Of a stretch of 31,879 bases of DNA, positions 1,947 to 26,379 are shown piece after piece. Within the stretch, counting starts at the first letter, position 1, and every line of letters starts with the position of its first letter. The translations under genes were made by a program, and so were the position numbers. The DNA is from a virus. The stretch covers positions 1 to 31,879 of IMG/VR virus record IMGVR_UViG_3300042261_000595; one strand, written 5' to 3'. The notes under the pieces are model-generated. The model did not search any database, had not been told where the DNA came from, and saw only the letters and a program-made list of their open reading frames with translations.

Positions 1947-2283
1947 TTTTCGGATTTATTACGATGGAGGGAATACCTACGATGGCGACCCATTCTGTGC
2001 GCCCGCGTTTGGTATTCTCGTCATCGTGGAAAAAGACGAAGAACATGGACGTAGACTTGTCACGGCGAAGGACTATTATTGTTGGGACGAGAATAACAAT
2101 CGCTGGTGGTGCTTTGACTATATCGGCATGATTGATTATCTCGCTCAACCCGGAAGAAAGCGCGTGCTGTTCGGAAGAACGGTAAAAAATAGTATCTGGT
2201 ATTCAGCGATGAAGCGCGCCAATTATGACCCTGATTTTCCCCCGCGGACTGCTTGGGGTGCGTTAGAGGAGCATTGTGACTAA
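1939..2283 (+). CDS. Conserved phage protein of unknown function
   Basis: A 114-residue protein overlapping its upstream neighbour by 8 bases. It is rich in Tyr, Trp and Asp, with a start like DFRIYYDGGNTYDGDPF and a later segment GRRLVTAKDYYCWDE. Similar short proteins occur beside phage fibre-like genes, but no function is known to me. There is no signal peptide or membrane helix. The DNA here is more AT-rich than the portal gene before it, as in the first part of the next gene, which suggests the cassette was acquired as a unit. Confidence 0.55.
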   Translation: MPDFRIYYDGGNTYDGDPFCAPAFGILVIVEKDEEHGRRLVTAKDYYCWDENNNRWWCFDYIGMIDYLAQPGRKRVLFGRTVKNSIWYSAMKRANYDPDFPPRTAWGALEEHCD

Positions 2284-3757
2284 CCCATCATTTACTCAAG
2301 TCACTTTTCGAGGACGGCTTGATGATGGTAATGAGACAGGCGCGACTTGGATTGCCACGCAGGGTTCTGATTGGACGCAACTTGTCAATACGAATTTTCG
2401 CGTTCGGTTCAGGATAGATGAAACAAATTCACGCGCATGGACTAGTAAAACTTGGAATCTGTATTACTCAAAGAATGGTGGTGCTTATACTGCGATTGGT
2501 TCAGGTCAGGCAGTAAAGTATGCTACATCCTCTAACTTCGCGCAGGGCGATGATTGTACAAGCCAGTTAACAGGTGGTACAGGCACATTTGTTACTGATA
2601 ATAACGGCATGTGCGAAAGCGCAGGGGCAACCAATTCGGGCAGTGCTGGATATCTGTTCGAGGTTGAGTATTGTTTGCAGATTGATAAAACGTATGTCGC
2701 GCATGGTGACACAATCACCCTGCGCGTGTACGACAGCACTTCTGCAATCGCCACATACACCGACACGCCTTCCATTACAGTCCAGATTGATATAACGGGC
2801 ACACTGTCAAAAACTCTTGCCAATGTCACATTAGACTCGGATGGTATCAAAGAGATCTACGGCACGTTGTCCAAGACCCTGGACAACGTTACCCTGGATG
2901 CGGACGGGACGAAGGAGCTGTGGGGGTCGCTGAGCAAAACCCTGGCAGATGTGACCCTCTCCTCTGTGGGAATAGCCGAGATCCAGGGAAGCCTGAGCAA
3001 GACCCTGGCGGATGCAACTCTGGACAGCGATGCCCAAACAGAGATTCAAGGGAGCCTGACAAAAACCCTTGAGGATGCCACGCTGGAGAGCGACGGGACG
3101 GTGGGCACAGCCAGCATCACAGGAACGCTGAGCAAGACCCTGGACGATGTCACGCTGAGCGCCAGCGGGCAGGCGGAGATCTCCGGGAGCCTGAGCAAGA
3201 CGCTGGAAGATGCCAGTCTAATCGCAGCCAGTATCAGCGAGGTGCAGGGCAGCCTGGCGAAGACACTGGGAGACGTCACCCTGAGTGCGCTGGGAACAGT
3301 TGATATCACCGCAAGCATGACCAGGACGTTGGAGAATGCCGCGCTGGCCGCAGACGGGCGCGTGGACGTGAGCGCAAGCCTGGCCAGGACACTTGAGGAT
3401 GCCGCCCTGGAGGCAGACGCCAGGCTGGAGGTATTCGGAACGTTCCTAAAAACGCTGGAAGATGCCACCCTGGATGCGGACGGCACGGTGTCCACTGAGA
3501 TCATGGGGACGCTGAACGTGACGCTGGCGGATGCAACCTGCACAAGCTCGGGAACGGTGACAACGCCCATTGCGCCGGAGGCATACGAAGATGCGGCGGT
3601 GATCTTCCGCCAGGCGGAGGACACGGCTGGGATCACGCTGAGCGCAGAGGATGTGCTGCTGCGGATCACCGGTTACGAAGAGCGGGCAGTACTGAGATTG
3701 AGCACAGAGGATCTGATCTCGTTCATGACAGAGATCGAGGAGGAGGCCATACGATGA
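2276..3757 (+). CDS. Repeat-containing virion surface or fibre-like protein
   Basis: A 493-residue protein starting at a GTG preceded by GAGGAG and overlapping the previous gene by 8 bases. Residues ~1-170 form a beta-rich domain (FRGRLDDGNETGATWIA, then YLFEVEYCLQI) of a type seen in phage fibre-like or surface proteins. Residues ~175-430 hold about 12 tandem units of ~21 residues with consensus G-(T/S)-L-S-K-T-L-x-D-(V/A)-T-L-x-(S/A)-x-G. Such units are found in phage virion proteins and plausibly build an elongated beta structure. The last ~60 residues are acidic and helical (EEEAIR end). The 3' two thirds is GC-rich while the first third is AT-rich, hinting at a mosaic. The exact place on the virion is unknown. 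Confidence 0.6.
   Translation: MTNPSFTQVTFRGRLDDGNETGATWIATQGSDWTQLVNTNFRVRFRIDETNSRAWTSKTWNLYYSKNGGAYTAIGSGQAVKYATSSNFAQGDDCTSQLTGGTGTFVTDNNGMCESAGATNSGSAGYLFEVEYCLQIDKTYVAHGDTITLRVYDSTSAIATYTDTPSITVQIDITGTLSKTLANVTLDSDGIKEIYGTLSKTLDNVTLDADGTKELWGSLSKTLADVTLSSVGIAEIQGSLSKTLADATLDSDAQTEIQGSLTKTLEDATLESDGTVGTASITGTLSKTLDDVTLSASGQAEISGSLSKTLEDASLIAASISEVQGSLAKTLGDVTLSALGTVDITASMTRTLENAALAADGRVDVSASLARTLEDAALEADARLEVFGTFLKTLEDATLDADGTVSTEIMGTLNVTLADATCTSSGTVTTPIAPEAYEDAAVIFRQAEDTAGITLSAEDVLLRITGYEERAVLRLSTEDLISFMTEIEEEAIR
2798..3564 (+). repeat. About 12 tandem coding repeats of ~63 bp
   Basis: This lies within the preceding surface protein gene. The protein repeats GxLSKTLxDxTLxxxG about 12 times. 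Most units are exactly 21 codons; one unit carries three extra codons and one carries two. The DNA copies differ by many substitutions, so the array is old enough to have drifted although the protein pattern is kept. Unequal recombination could still change its length. Confidence 0.8.
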
Positions 3758-20887: not shown

Positions 20888-21760
20888 TTACAGTCTCCAG
20901 TGATCTACCGGTGATGCCCGAGCGTGCGCCTTGCGGGCATCCGATTCGGCCAGGGTCAGGTAATGGCGTACCATTTCAAGCGTGGCATGTCCCAGTAACC
21001 TCTGCAGGGTAAATACGTCGCCATCGTTGCGCAGATATTCCACGGCGAAAGTATGGCGGAAGCGGTGCGGATGAACGTTGGCCACACCAGCCTTACGTGC
21101 GATCCTGACCAGGATGTGAGCAACCTCGGTGCGCGTGAGAACCTTGCCTCGCAGCGTGGTAAATACAGGATCCGTCTTCTCAGCAAAACGCCTGGTGGAG
21201 AGGTAGGACCATAACACCTGGCGTGTGGTCCTCCCCAGGTACACGGTCCTGGCCCTGGACTTCTTCCCCGACATGAACGGCCTTACGAACACCTCTCCCG
21301 ATTCCAGGTCCATATCTGCCAGCACCAGCCTGCACAGTTCACCGATGCGCAGGCCAGTGTCCATCAGGACCATGATCAGCGCCTTGGAGCGTTTGGAATC
21401 AGCTGCCCGGATCAGGCGCGTAACCTCATCCTGTGTGTACGGGGTGATCGCCTTTGTCTGGAACTTTGGTGCTTTGATGTTGAGATCCGGCCTGGGTATC
21501 TCCAGCGCCGCCTCCGCCCATTTGCAGAATGATCGTATTGCCCGCCACTGGACATGTATCGTGGATTCAGTTACTCCCTTATTCCGGCGGTAATTGAGGA
21601 AATCCAGGATATTCTTTTCCGTGATGTTTTCTATTTCAGGATCCCGTAGAAAATCTACTAACTTACGCAGGCATTCTGAATACATGCGGATGGTGGATGG
21701 GCTTAAACCTTCCGCATGCAGGGAAATGATATAGCCTTCGAGGGACTTTGAAAATTGCAT
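20888..21760 (-). CDS. int: Tyrosine recombinase (phage integrase)
   Basis: A 290-residue XerC/D-like integrase. The longer frame begins at 21802, but the ATG at 21760 has GGAG eight bases upstream and begins a normal SAM-like core-binding N-terminus (MQFSKSLEGYIISLHAEGLS). The catalytic domain shows the expected set: Arg in DTGLRIGEL, Lys in SGKKSRART, H-x-x-R in HPHRFRHTF, His in LLGHATLEM and the Tyr nucleophile in RHYLTLAE. It integrates or excises the phage at the adjacent att core. There is no obvious Xis gene beside it. A hairpin of TTTTTGCG/CGCAAAAA lies just before its ribosome site. Confidence 0.9.
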   Translation of the reverse strand: MQFSKSLEGYIISLHAEGLSPSTIRMYSECLRKLVDFLRDPEIENITEKNILDFLNYRRNKGVTESTIHVQWRAIRSFCKWAEAALEIPRPDLNIKAPKFQTKAITPYTQDEVTRLIRAADSKRSKALIMVLMDTGLRIGELCRLVLADMDLESGEVFVRPFMSGKKSRARTVYLGRTTRQVLWSYLSTRRFAEKTDPVFTTLRGKVLTRTEVAHILVRIARKAGVANVHPHRFRHTFAVEYLRNDGDVFTLQRLLGHATLEMVRHYLTLAESDARKAHARASPVDHWRL

Positions 21761-21772
21761 GAGATGTGCTCC

Positions 21773-21794
21773 TTTTTGCGAAATACCGCAAAAA
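21773..21794 (+). repeat. Inverted pair of candidate integrase arm sites
   Basis: TTTTTGCG (21773-21780) and its perfect reverse complement CGCAAAAA (21787-21794) are separated by six bases. A similar TTTTTGCGGAATG lies on the other side of the att core at 21943-21955. The arrangement fits arm-type sites flanking a core, or an int autoregulatory operator, because it abuts the int ribosome site. The eight-base core also occurs by chance in coding regions (for example near 14166 and 27560), so this is a candidate only. Confidence 0.4.
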
Positions 21795-21856
21795 ACAGGC
21801 ACATAACTATGTTATTAGGGGGAGAACGTGTCGTTTTGGGGATGAGTGAAAAAAGC

Positions 21857-21898
21857 TCTGTGTAAGAGATGTGCTCTAACCAACTGAGCTATCCGCCC
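21857..21898 (-). other. attP core: 5' half of tRNA-Val(UAC)
   Basis: Read on the minus strand, 42 bases match a canonical tRNA from its first base to within the anticodon stem: GGGCGGA acceptor, TA, an AGCTCAGTTGGTTAGAGC D-arm, and the loop CTTACAC with anticodon TAC. Pairing of the 3' stem side holds for positions 39-41 and then fails (GC instead of the expected TG), followed by a T6 run. No T-arm or 3' acceptor follows. It stands next to int, so it is the likely site of identity with the host attB; only the 5' half is carried. Confidence 0.7.
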
Positions 21899-21919
21899 GC
21901 ACAGGGACACAACTGTGCC

Positions 21920-21928
21920 ATTATAACA
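21920..21928 (-). promoter_or_regulatory. Extended -10 promoter reading into the tRNA-Val half
   Basis: On the minus strand, TGT-TATAAT (21928 down to 21920) is a TGnTATAAT extended -10 box. No good -35 is seen. The start would fall near 21913, about 14 bases before tRNA position 1. GCACAG and CTGTGC (21899-21904 and 21913-21918) could form a leader hairpin. It may drive the tRNA after integration and also read toward int. Confidence 0.55.
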
Positions 21929-21942
21929 TGAGAAAGTGACTA

Positions 21943-21955
21943 TTTTTGCGGAATG
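21943..21955 (+). repeat. Candidate distal integrase arm site
   Basis: TTTTTGCGGAATG resembles the two copies at 21773-21794 and lies on the opposite side of the att core, about 45 bases from it. This is weak evidence alone; it matters only as part of the set. Confidence 0.3.
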
Positions 21956-21997
21956 TTAAGAAATTGTGTTTTCGGCAGATGTGCCCTTTCTACTGGA

Positions 21998-22487: not shown

Positions 22488-22521
22488 GTTATAATAGAAC
22501 AGTTGTGCTATAATAGAACAG
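22488..22521 (+). repeat. Direct repeats TATAATAGAACAG, possible operators or promoter
   Basis: TATAATAGAACAG occurs at 22490-22502 and again at 22509-22521, 19 bases apart (nearly two helical turns). The second copy forms TGC-TATAAT, an extended -10 on the plus strand. Bases 22488-22507 are the reverse complement of 21908-21927 with 18 of 20 identical. It may be a repressor operator or an antisense promoter. Confidence 0.45.
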
Positions 22522-22545: not shown

Positions 22546-22923
22546 TTATAAGTTGTCCAGGTGTTTGTCCAATTCCTCCCTGAAGATCTTCCTGGCTTCA
22601 GGGGAATCTGTGTCAATACCCATCTCGGAGATCCGCCGGTCTGCTGAGTATACGGCACTGGCCAGAGCGGAGCGCAGCGTAGGTGAAAGAGAGTCGAAGG
22701 GAGAAGAGGGCCCCGGCATTCCCAATACTTCGTACACTTCGGGGTAGCGCTCGGCAATCTTGTCTATGATCTCCTTTCTTTTGGGTTCACCTCGTGTCCC
22801 ATTTTTCCAGGAATTATAAGTCGCTGGATTGACACCTAAATACATAGCGAATTGATTTTCTGACTTCCTGCCATAGTCAGACCATTCGTTGTATTTTTGC
22901 ACAATCCAGTCACGGAAAATCAT
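22546..22923 (-). CDS. XRE-family phage repressor
   Basis: A 125-residue DNA-binding protein. Residues ~18-60 are a Cro/CI-type helix-turn-helix: ENQFAMYLGVNPATYNSWKNGTRG, then RKEIIDKIAERYPEVYEVLG. The C-terminal half is helical (LRSALASAVYSADRRISEMGI) and has no peptidase Ser-Lys motif, so it is a short repressor not expected to self-cleave. It faces the early operon across divergent promoters; its ATG at 22923 has no ribosome site and its TATAAT lies ten bases upstream, so its mRNA is probably leaderless, as for lambda cI made from PRM. It likely represses the early promoter and controls lysogeny. Confidence 0.8.
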   Translation of the reverse strand: MIFRDWIVQKYNEWSDYGRKSENQFAMYLGVNPATYNSWKNGTRGEPKRKEIIDKIAERYPEVYEVLGMPGPSSPFDSLSPTLRSALASAVYSADRRISEMGIDTDSPEARKIFREELDKHLDNL

Positions 22924-24946: not shown

Positions 24947-25195
24947 ATGCCAGTTGTCAAAACCGTGTCTGTAACGTATGGTCGGAAGTTCAACCTGGGC
25001 GATTATAACAGCGCCACGGTGGACTGTACGATCTGGGCAGATGTGGCTCCGGACGAGGACCTGAACCAGGCCATGCAGGATCTGTGGTCGATGGCGAAGG
25101 AGAACGTCAAGAGCCAGTCCATGCCGATTGTGAGCAAGGCGAATGCCAATGTGCAGGAGGCGTTCCTGGGACTGCCGGTAAGGAGTGAGGCATGA
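24947..25195 (+). CDS. Small conserved phage protein
   Basis: An 82-residue protein with AAAGGAG before ATG 24947. It reads VVKTVSVTYGRKFNLGDYN, then ATVDCTIWADVAPDEDLNQAM, then a helix with LWSMAKENVKSQ. The pattern 'VTYGRKFNLGDYNSATVDCTIWAD' recurs in phage proteins annotated as hypothetical near recombination or replication genes. It overlaps the next start (ATGA), so the two are probably made together. Confidence 0.6.
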   Translation: MPVVKTVSVTYGRKFNLGDYNSATVDCTIWADVAPDEDLNQAMQDLWSMAKENVKSQSMPIVSKANANVQEAFLGLPVRSEA

Positions 25196-26379
25196 TCAAA
25201 GGATTGACGGATGAAGTTAAGGCGCAGTTTCCCAACCTTGGCAAGCTGCGCAAGGGTTCGGAGAAGGTGGGCGACAAGATGGGCCGCGAGCTTCCGTACT
25301 GGAGGTTCACTTCGGAGCGAGCGGAGATCGTGGAGGCATTCACAGCGGCTTATGGGTCTCAACCCACGCTGATCAACTGCTACATGGCGTACAGCACGCC
25401 AGATGAGGCTTTCAGCACCTGGTGCGAGATCTGGGGAGCGACCGGACTGGTACACCGCTGTGACGGTGAGACCATGAGCATCTGGCAGGAAGCGGGTAAG
25501 TACGTCCGGGGGTCCAAGCCCTGCGCAGGCGGGCACGATAAGAACGACCCCCTGAACGATGCCGTGGGCAGGCTGGCGATCATCATCCCGGAACTGGTAT
25601 ATGCGGGGTATGTGGGGCTGGTGACGGTCGAGACCCACGGCAAGCACGACATCCTCAGCATCAGCCGGGCGCTGCAGGCAGTGTACGAGAGCCGGGGCGG
25701 TAACGGGCAGGGGCTGCACGGGATCCCTTTCAACCTGCGCAGGGTCCCCGAGCAGGTGAGCACGCCAGGCTTTGGCAACCGCACAGGTCAGCGCAGCATG
25801 GTCGAGAAGTGGAACGTGAAACTGGAACCGGCGGCGGATTGGGTACGGCTGCAGCTGGACATGGCGCATGCCACACAGATGGCGGGGGCACTGCCGGAGG
25901 CAAAGCCCGCACCGCAGCTGCTGGAGCCGAAGCCGGAGAATAAGCCGGCGGCAAAAGCGGCGCTGCCAGCACAGACGGCCAGCATGGAAGAACTGAACGA
26001 ATTGGGATGGATGCTGTGGCCGGGTGTATGGGAGACGGTGAAGGAAACGATCCTCAAGAGCAAGAACATCAAGGGCGACATCGTCAAGGCAGTGGAGTTC
26101 TGCGAGAAGCGCCGCGATACGCTTCCTGAGAAGTGGGGGGATCATGTGAAGTCTGCGTACCCGGATTTTGCCCCCCTGCTACCCGAGATCGCCAAGGTGA
26201 TGGGCGGGGACGGCTATGACAAGCTGCTGGCGTTGAAGGGCATGGCCAAGGCCATCGAGGTGCGTAAGGTAAAAAACAGCACGGCCAGCGATCTGGTAGA
26301 TGTGATCATCAGCTTTTTACCCATTGATATGCAGGAACCCGTGATGGAGGAAGGACCCTATGAACCCCCGAATTTCTAA
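25192..26379 (+). CDS. Possible recombination directionality factor-like protein
   Basis: A 395-residue protein. Residues ~35-240 have a pattern I associate with the phiC31 gp3-like recombination directionality factor family: WRFTSERAEIVEAFTAAYG, TWCEIWGATGLVHRCDGE, then SKPCAGGHDKND, LAIIIPELVYAGYVGLVTVETHGKHD, and a C-terminal EKWNVKLEP strand. Residues ~245-285 form an Ala/Pro/Lys linker and ~290-395 a helical domain not typical of that family. In phages, those factors work with serine integrases, whereas this phage carries a tyrosine one, so the name marks similarity rather than function. It could be a replication or recombination protein. Confidence 0.45.
   Translation: MIKGLTDEVKAQFPNLGKLRKGSEKVGDKMGRELPYWRFTSERAEIVEAFTAAYGSQPTLINCYMAYSTPDEAFSTWCEIWGATGLVHRCDGETMSIWQEAGKYVRGSKPCAGGHDKNDPLNDAVGRLAIIIPELVYAGYVGLVTVETHGKHDILSISRALQAVYESRGGNGQGLHGIPFNLRRVPEQVSTPGFGNRTGQRSMVEKWNVKLEPAADWVRLQLDMAHATQMAGALPEAKPAPQLLEPKPENKPAAKAALPAQTASMEELNELGWMLWPGVWETVKETILKSKNIKGDIVKAVEFCEKRRDTLPEKWGDHVKSAYPDFAPLLPEIAKVMGGDGYDKLLALKGMAKAIEVRKVKNSTASDLVDVIISFLPIDMQEPVMEEGPYEPPNF

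Follow-up and report, generated by a model that had tools for sequence, protein, structure and literature searches.

The window analysed here is the whole 31,879-nt stretch of IMGVR_UViG_3300042261_000595, a fragment of an incomplete virus genome. A tyrosine integrase gene (int; 290 aa) lies at 20888..21760 on the minus strand (Pfam PF00589, E=1.9e-37; PHROG 1, integrase). Its reading frame starts at 21760 and runs away from a half tRNA gene at 21857; the two lie on one strand, 97 bp apart, with the tRNA half upstream of an uncut int. Portal, capsid, and tape measure genes are found to the left of this site, and ParB-like, Gp3-like, and other genes to the right. As phage-type genes flank both sides, the site represents an attP rather than a host junction.

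The virion region includes a protein with many 'SLSKTLxDVTLxSDG' unit repeats (2276-3757, +). A YbjQ-type putative heavy-metal-binding protein (PF01906; 21998-22459, −) is encoded between the attP and a candidate regulator gene, which is an odd position for cargo. The candidate regulator (22546..22923, −) is small and HTH repressor-like, judged from its sequence only; Pfam gave no match. A Gp3-like recombination-directionality-factor domain (PF18897, E=4.5e-22) was found at 25192-26379 (+). This family is associated with serine-integrase phages, and the integrase here is a tyrosine recombinase. A viral-contig search with the protein at 25192-26379 confirmed no relative.

The attP carries the 5′ half of tRNA-Val

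Read on the minus strand, the site consists of TTTCTCATGTTATAATGGCACAGTTGTGTCCCTGTGC, then GGGCGGATAGCTCAGTTGGTTAGAGCACATCTCTTACACAGA (21898-21857), then GCTTTTTTCACTC, followed by the integrase gene. The central segment (21857..21898, −) corresponds to nt 1-42 of tRNA-Val(UAC) and is the part common to attP and attB, matching a host locus (L002, 6501-6542) at 42/42 positions; BLAST gave 43/43 with one extra 5′ base. The match opens precisely on tRNA nt 1 and gives out within the 3′ strand of the anticodon stem; beyond this point, the phage reads GCTTTTTTC and the host TGGGGTCG. A sequence-only reading of this DNA had noticed that the 42 bases next to int match the 5′ part of tRNA-Val(UAC) and then diverge, and the comparison with L002 bears this out.

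ARAGORN called no complete tRNA in the 31.9-kb window, which is itself part of an incomplete genome, and a search throughout the window for the tRNA 3′ half found none (best ungapped match, 23/39). Neither a longer identity nor a tRNA 3′ end, which the sequence-only reading had named as arguments against itself, was found in the window. A half-tRNA scan with loose rules had scored the window as 'INTACT', and this score was overruled by ARAGORN and the 3′-half search. The T6 run that had been noticed on the int side is real and lies directly after the tRNA half (21849..21854, −). It was rejected as an intrinsic terminator, as no terminator was called and its folding was ordinary.

With the 5′ half present, the 3′ half absent, and a promoter box and repeats placed around the core, the window site was confirmed, at the level of sequence, as an attP with a tRNA 5′ half. 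It thus resembles 5′-tDNA-fragment sites in that the tRNA 5′ end is present from nt 1 and the 3′ end is not. It also resembles an integration module, as the tyrosine integrase adjoins the attP and the common tRNA segment ends at the anticodon arm.

Repeats around the core

Repeat counting gave three copies of the octamer GCACATCT, which includes the anticodon stem's 5′ arm, in the 31.9 kb; all are on the minus strand and fall within 223 bp. One copy, a putative Int half-site, forms the left arm of the core within the tRNA anticodon stem (21867..21874). Of the other two, one immediately precedes the int ATG, between int and the core (21762..21769), and one is in the attP arm on the far side (21977..21984); each is 105-110 bp from the core. 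The core is also flanked by arm-type direct repeats (ATTYCGCAAAAA) of family D16, namely ATTTCGCAAAAA on the int side (21773..21784, −) and ATTCCGCAAAAA on the far side (21943..21954, −). The GCACATCT and ATTTCGCAAAAA/ATTCCGCAAAAA repeats look like Int binding sites. Anticodon-arm octamers are repeated in the flanks of several integrase relatives (L007, L008, L015, L096, and L166), though not all, and we therefore restrict this argument to the present phage.

The anticodon loop CTTACAC (21860..21866, −) lies in attB between the two arms of the anticodon-stem dyad, CATCT/AGATG. From this dyad and from the repeat borders of integrated relatives, we infer that the loop is the 7-bp overlap. The crossover most likely takes place there, and an exchange anywhere in the common 42 bp would give the same outcome.

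A consensus extended -10 box precedes the tRNA half

The box TGTTATAAT (21920..21928, −) is a perfect extended -10 element (6/6 plus TG) with a poor -35 region. It ends 21 bp before tRNA nt 1, giving a leader of ~14 nt if transcription starts 7 nt past the -10, in agreement with the extended -10 box and ~14-base leader first read from the sequence. The window contains four copies of TGNTATAAT, against 0.57 ± 0.82 in shuffled sequences, and the chance that one would fall on the right strand in the 40 nt upstream is roughly 0.003. In 43 of 55 intact tRNA-Val(UAC) loci (a redundant set), a perfect TATAAT was found no more than 75 nt away; thus, the phage box resembles a tRNA promoter in both sequence and position. 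Through the half tRNA, TGTTATAAT also faces int, which lies 160 bp downstream; no terminator was predicted in the intervening DNA.

The -10 and a CACAGTTGTG palindrome together make up a stretch (21908..21927, −) that may be an operator shared with the immunity region. These 20 bases, GTTATAATGGCACAGTTGTG, have an 18/20 copy at 22488-22507 (+), near the HTH-repressor-like gene; none of 100 whole-window and 500 local shuffles yielded a copy of at least 17. The 18/20 copy suggests a regulator site common to the attP promoter and the putative immunity region. In the repeat search, it formed part of a second promoter/operator-like motif with tandem TATAATAGAACAG (22488..22521, +). The two TATAATAGAACAG units lie 19 bp apart between the YbjQ-like and HTH-like genes, like paired promoter/operator sites, and the plus-strand reading of 22488-22521 would run antisense to the HTH-like gene. 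The strict palindrome AGNACANNTGTGCT was rejected as a repeated operator because its copy number was within chance, and only the single 18/20 copy was retained.

Host locus and search for lysogens

We searched the genome contigs of 84,980 GTDB species genomes for the host tRNA-Val(UAC) predicted from the phage. GGGCGGATAGCTCAGTTGGTTAGAGCACATCTCTTACACAGA had one exact match, within a complete tRNA-Val(UAC) of a MAG from an uncultured Longilinea (L002, 6501-6575). This locus is uninterrupted, with a ribosome-hibernation-type gene upstream and a CrtC-domain gene downstream of the tRNA; CrtC lies beside the same tRNA in a second genome. Judged from the tRNA alone, the host would be an Anaerolineales bacterium. 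A single match to the tRNA-Val(UAC) 5′ half was found in 107 of 147 genomes of the host family.

No integrated copy (attL/attR) of this phage was detected in these 147 genomes, in which integrase relatives do have attL/attR, and no relative of its capsid protein was detected there either. Apart from the window, no viral contig contained the 42-mer, and none encoded a close relative of the integrase. Capsid relatives were present in 12 IMG/VR contigs, mostly fragments, at 57-69%; none of the 12 had the integrase of the window. No CRISPR link to a host was found, the two strongest short hits (94% and 91% over 32 nt) falling outside repeat arrays.

Integrase relatives carry either half of the tRNA

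The best relatives of the integrase (47-49% identity) are tRNA-linked integrases of Anaerolineales. In the 147 family genomes, relatives at E<1e-20 were present in 74. Most commonly, int had an intact tRNA on its own strand, 150-300 bp upstream; the far ends that could be recovered mostly had just a 3′ tRNA fragment, and the repeat borders of integrated relatives sit around the anticodon arm. Four relatives are conventional carriers of the 3′ half: G034 (15.6 kb; far fragment Val nt 30-71), G071 (Gly nt 30-75), G107 (Val nt 28-74), and G038 (far 3′ fragment). They resemble the window phage in having a related integrase, an adjacent tRNA in a similar int-proximal position, and anticodon-arm borders. 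Unlike in the window phage, the tRNA keeps its host promoter and 5′ half.

The opposite layout, in which int adjoins a 5′ fragment and the intact tRNA occupies the far end, was observed in three complete cases. In L096 (G130), a TATAAT promoter, tRNA-Val nt 1-48, and int lie 3.1 kb from an intact tRNA-Val that sits behind element DNA. L166 (G126) has tRNA-Gly(CCC) nt 1-51 beside int and the intact tRNA 14.8 kb away, and L113 (G008) has tRNA-Leu(UAG) nt 1-44 beside int, with the intact tRNA at a distance of 7.3 kb. A perfect TATAAT accompanies the int-side fragment in each case. Near the rebuilt tRNAs of this set, the -10 scored 4/6 in one, 5/6 at 57 nt in another, and none was found in the third, with no near-consensus box close by. 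In these elements as well, therefore, the usual promoter of the rebuilt tRNA has been lost, and the design does not depend on a promoter close by.

Among elements recovered at the int side only, 5′ fragments behind a -10-like box were also found there in L128, L135, and L147 (tRNA-Gly GCC, nt 1-37) and in L123 (tRNA-Gln UUG). L129 resembles a 5′-type attP that has not integrated.

Other arrangements were noted among the relatives. In G008 (L037/L047), an element of ~31 kb lies between two full tRNA-Val copies, and G013 has a relative of it (L036/L100); the far-end copy in both spans nt 2-74, lacking nt 1 only, so these are possible whole-tRNA attP elements. G110 has an intact tRNA-Val and a decayed whole copy ~1.1 kb off (L097, 328-374 and 1426-1499), possibly the scar of a shrunken element. 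A tRNA-Met 3′ half (about nt 26-31 to 73) precedes the integrase in L019, L024, L029-L033, and L035, with no complete tRNA called; these are possibly unintegrated attP sites. A third arrangement, in which the integrase relative lies beside an intact tRNA (Met, Lys, or Arg) on the opposite strand, was seen in L117, L118, L137, and L160.

Switching of polarity on the integrase tree

A maximum-likelihood tree was built from 54 integrases, nine of which were of the 5′ type; the other 45 had int next to an intact tRNA. The polarity label required five changes on this tree, and well-supported branches forced four of them. The window integrase grouped with intact-type Val and Pro integrases; G034, which carries the 3′ half of the same tRNA, was about 48-49% identical to it. 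The closest contrast was between L113 (5′ type) and L111 (intact tRNA at int), which are 81% identical and both at tRNA-Leu(UAG). This indicates that the half carried is not a fixed property of the integrase. Given the near-symmetric anticodon-arm core, the enzyme may not need to care which half is carried. Whole-tRNA elements are a possible intermediate between the two polarities.

Discussion

We consider it likely that this attP belongs to a temperate Anaerolineales phage whose integrase would recombine with the single tRNA-Val(UAC), the tRNA being rebuilt behind the phage promoter. Before integration, the TGTTATAAT promoter faces int through attP and would probably transcribe it. Recombination of attP with tRNA-Val(UAC), most likely across the 7-bp anticodon loop, would yield two products. 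On the int side, the host promoter would be followed by a dead 5′ tRNA fragment, GCTTTTTT, and int; at the far end, phage DNA with TGTTATAAT would precede an intact tRNA-Val made of the phage 5′ half and the host 3′ half. Integration would thus cut the TGTTATAAT promoter off from int and hand it to the tRNA, and the host tRNA promoter would face int instead. This rebuilding had been proposed in the sequence-only reading. That reading is supported in part: its geometry is borne out by the 5′ half and promoter in attP and by the layout of L096, L166, and L113, and the 147 family genomes yielded no lysogen of this phage. That result, together with the missing capsid relatives in the same genomes and the 12 IMG/VR capsid relatives without this integrase, weighs against our interpretation, as do the poor -35, a host deduced from the tRNA alone, and the rebuilt tRNAs of 5′-half relatives that have no near-consensus -10.

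There is about an even chance that TGTTATAAT is just the free phage's promoter for int, with tRNA expression in the lysogen an incidental by-product and free of phage regulation. Its orientation toward int with no predicted terminator between them favors this explanation, and pTN3-like elements are described as expressing their rebuilt tRNA from the integrase promoter (PMC8371274). However, an integrase promoter is compatible with the rebuilding of tRNA-Val behind phage DNA, and a box 21 bp before nt 1 resembles host tRNA promoters, as the redundant set of 55 loci showed.

Somewhat less probably, the 5′ type may be a still functional decay product of an attP that once held a whole tRNA, as in G008 and G013, and then lost the 3′ half. 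The full tRNA-Val copies at the far ends of those two elements, the decayed far copy in G110, and the difference in polarity between close relatives agree with this, whereas the 3′ half has left no trace in the window. It is much harder to regard the tRNA half as a relic of imprecise excision or host-DNA capture that is no longer used in integration. Although no lysogen was found in the family genomes, one boundary coincides with tRNA nt 1 and the other falls in the anticodon stem, the sequence is undecayed and beside int, its half-sites are reiterated, and the same layout is integrated in relatives. Disruption of tRNA-Val with complementation by a complete phage tRNA, as in the tRNA-dependent lysogeny of actinobacteriophages (PMC10865867), is scarcely credible here, because the 31.9-kb fragment contains no tRNA and the 42-bp core, rather than ~10 bp, suffices for rebuilding.

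Carriage of a 5′ fragment is rare yet already known. Of 3919 islands in Islander (PMC4383910), 3760 had 3′ and 159 had 5′ tRNA fragments, which also upholds the sequence-only statement that most elements carry the 3′ end. Bacterial islands with 5′ tDNA fragments are attributed to Zhao & Williams (2002, J Bacteriol 184:859) where that work is cited in PMC6563490. As in the Islander 5′ islands, the phage carries the 5′ part of the target tRNA, and the rebuilt tRNA would lie beyond the element with the 5′ fragment displaced. Unlike those islands, the present case involves a free-phage attP with a consensus extended -10 and repeated switching of polarity in one integrase clade; these are the points that it adds. 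Archaeal elements of the pTN3/TKV4 type have 41 bp in common with the 5′ half of tRNA-Leu, and their rebuilt tRNA is parted from its original promoter (PMC5495485). In pTN3/SSV-type elements, attP lies inside int, which is split on integration, whereas the attP in the window lies 97 bp upstream of an uncut int. The actinobacteriophages described by Guerrero-Bustamante & Hatfull (2024) are likewise temperate, with a tyrosine integrase and a tRNA-gene target; in their case, a phage tRNA takes the place of the host tRNA, which is not restored. Their attP and attB have ~10 bp in common, unlike the 42 bp of the window, which has no phage tRNA.

Prophage control of the host tRNA-Val is a reasonable reading of this arrangement. 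We regard it as doubtful, though worth stating, that a phage regulator acting through the CACAGTTGTG-type site controls the attP promoter, which would place the usually single tRNA-Val(UAC) of the lysogen under prophage control and, more broadly, that this integrase clade freely swaps the tRNA half and the ownership of the promoter, perhaps via whole-tRNA intermediates. The contrast between L113 and L111 makes the way in which target polarity switches directly testable. When an element enters a tRNA gene, the host promoter nearly always remains in control; the present element would take over that role, and, as 107 of the 147 family genomes have one match, the prophage would supply the promoter of a tRNA gene that is usually single copy.
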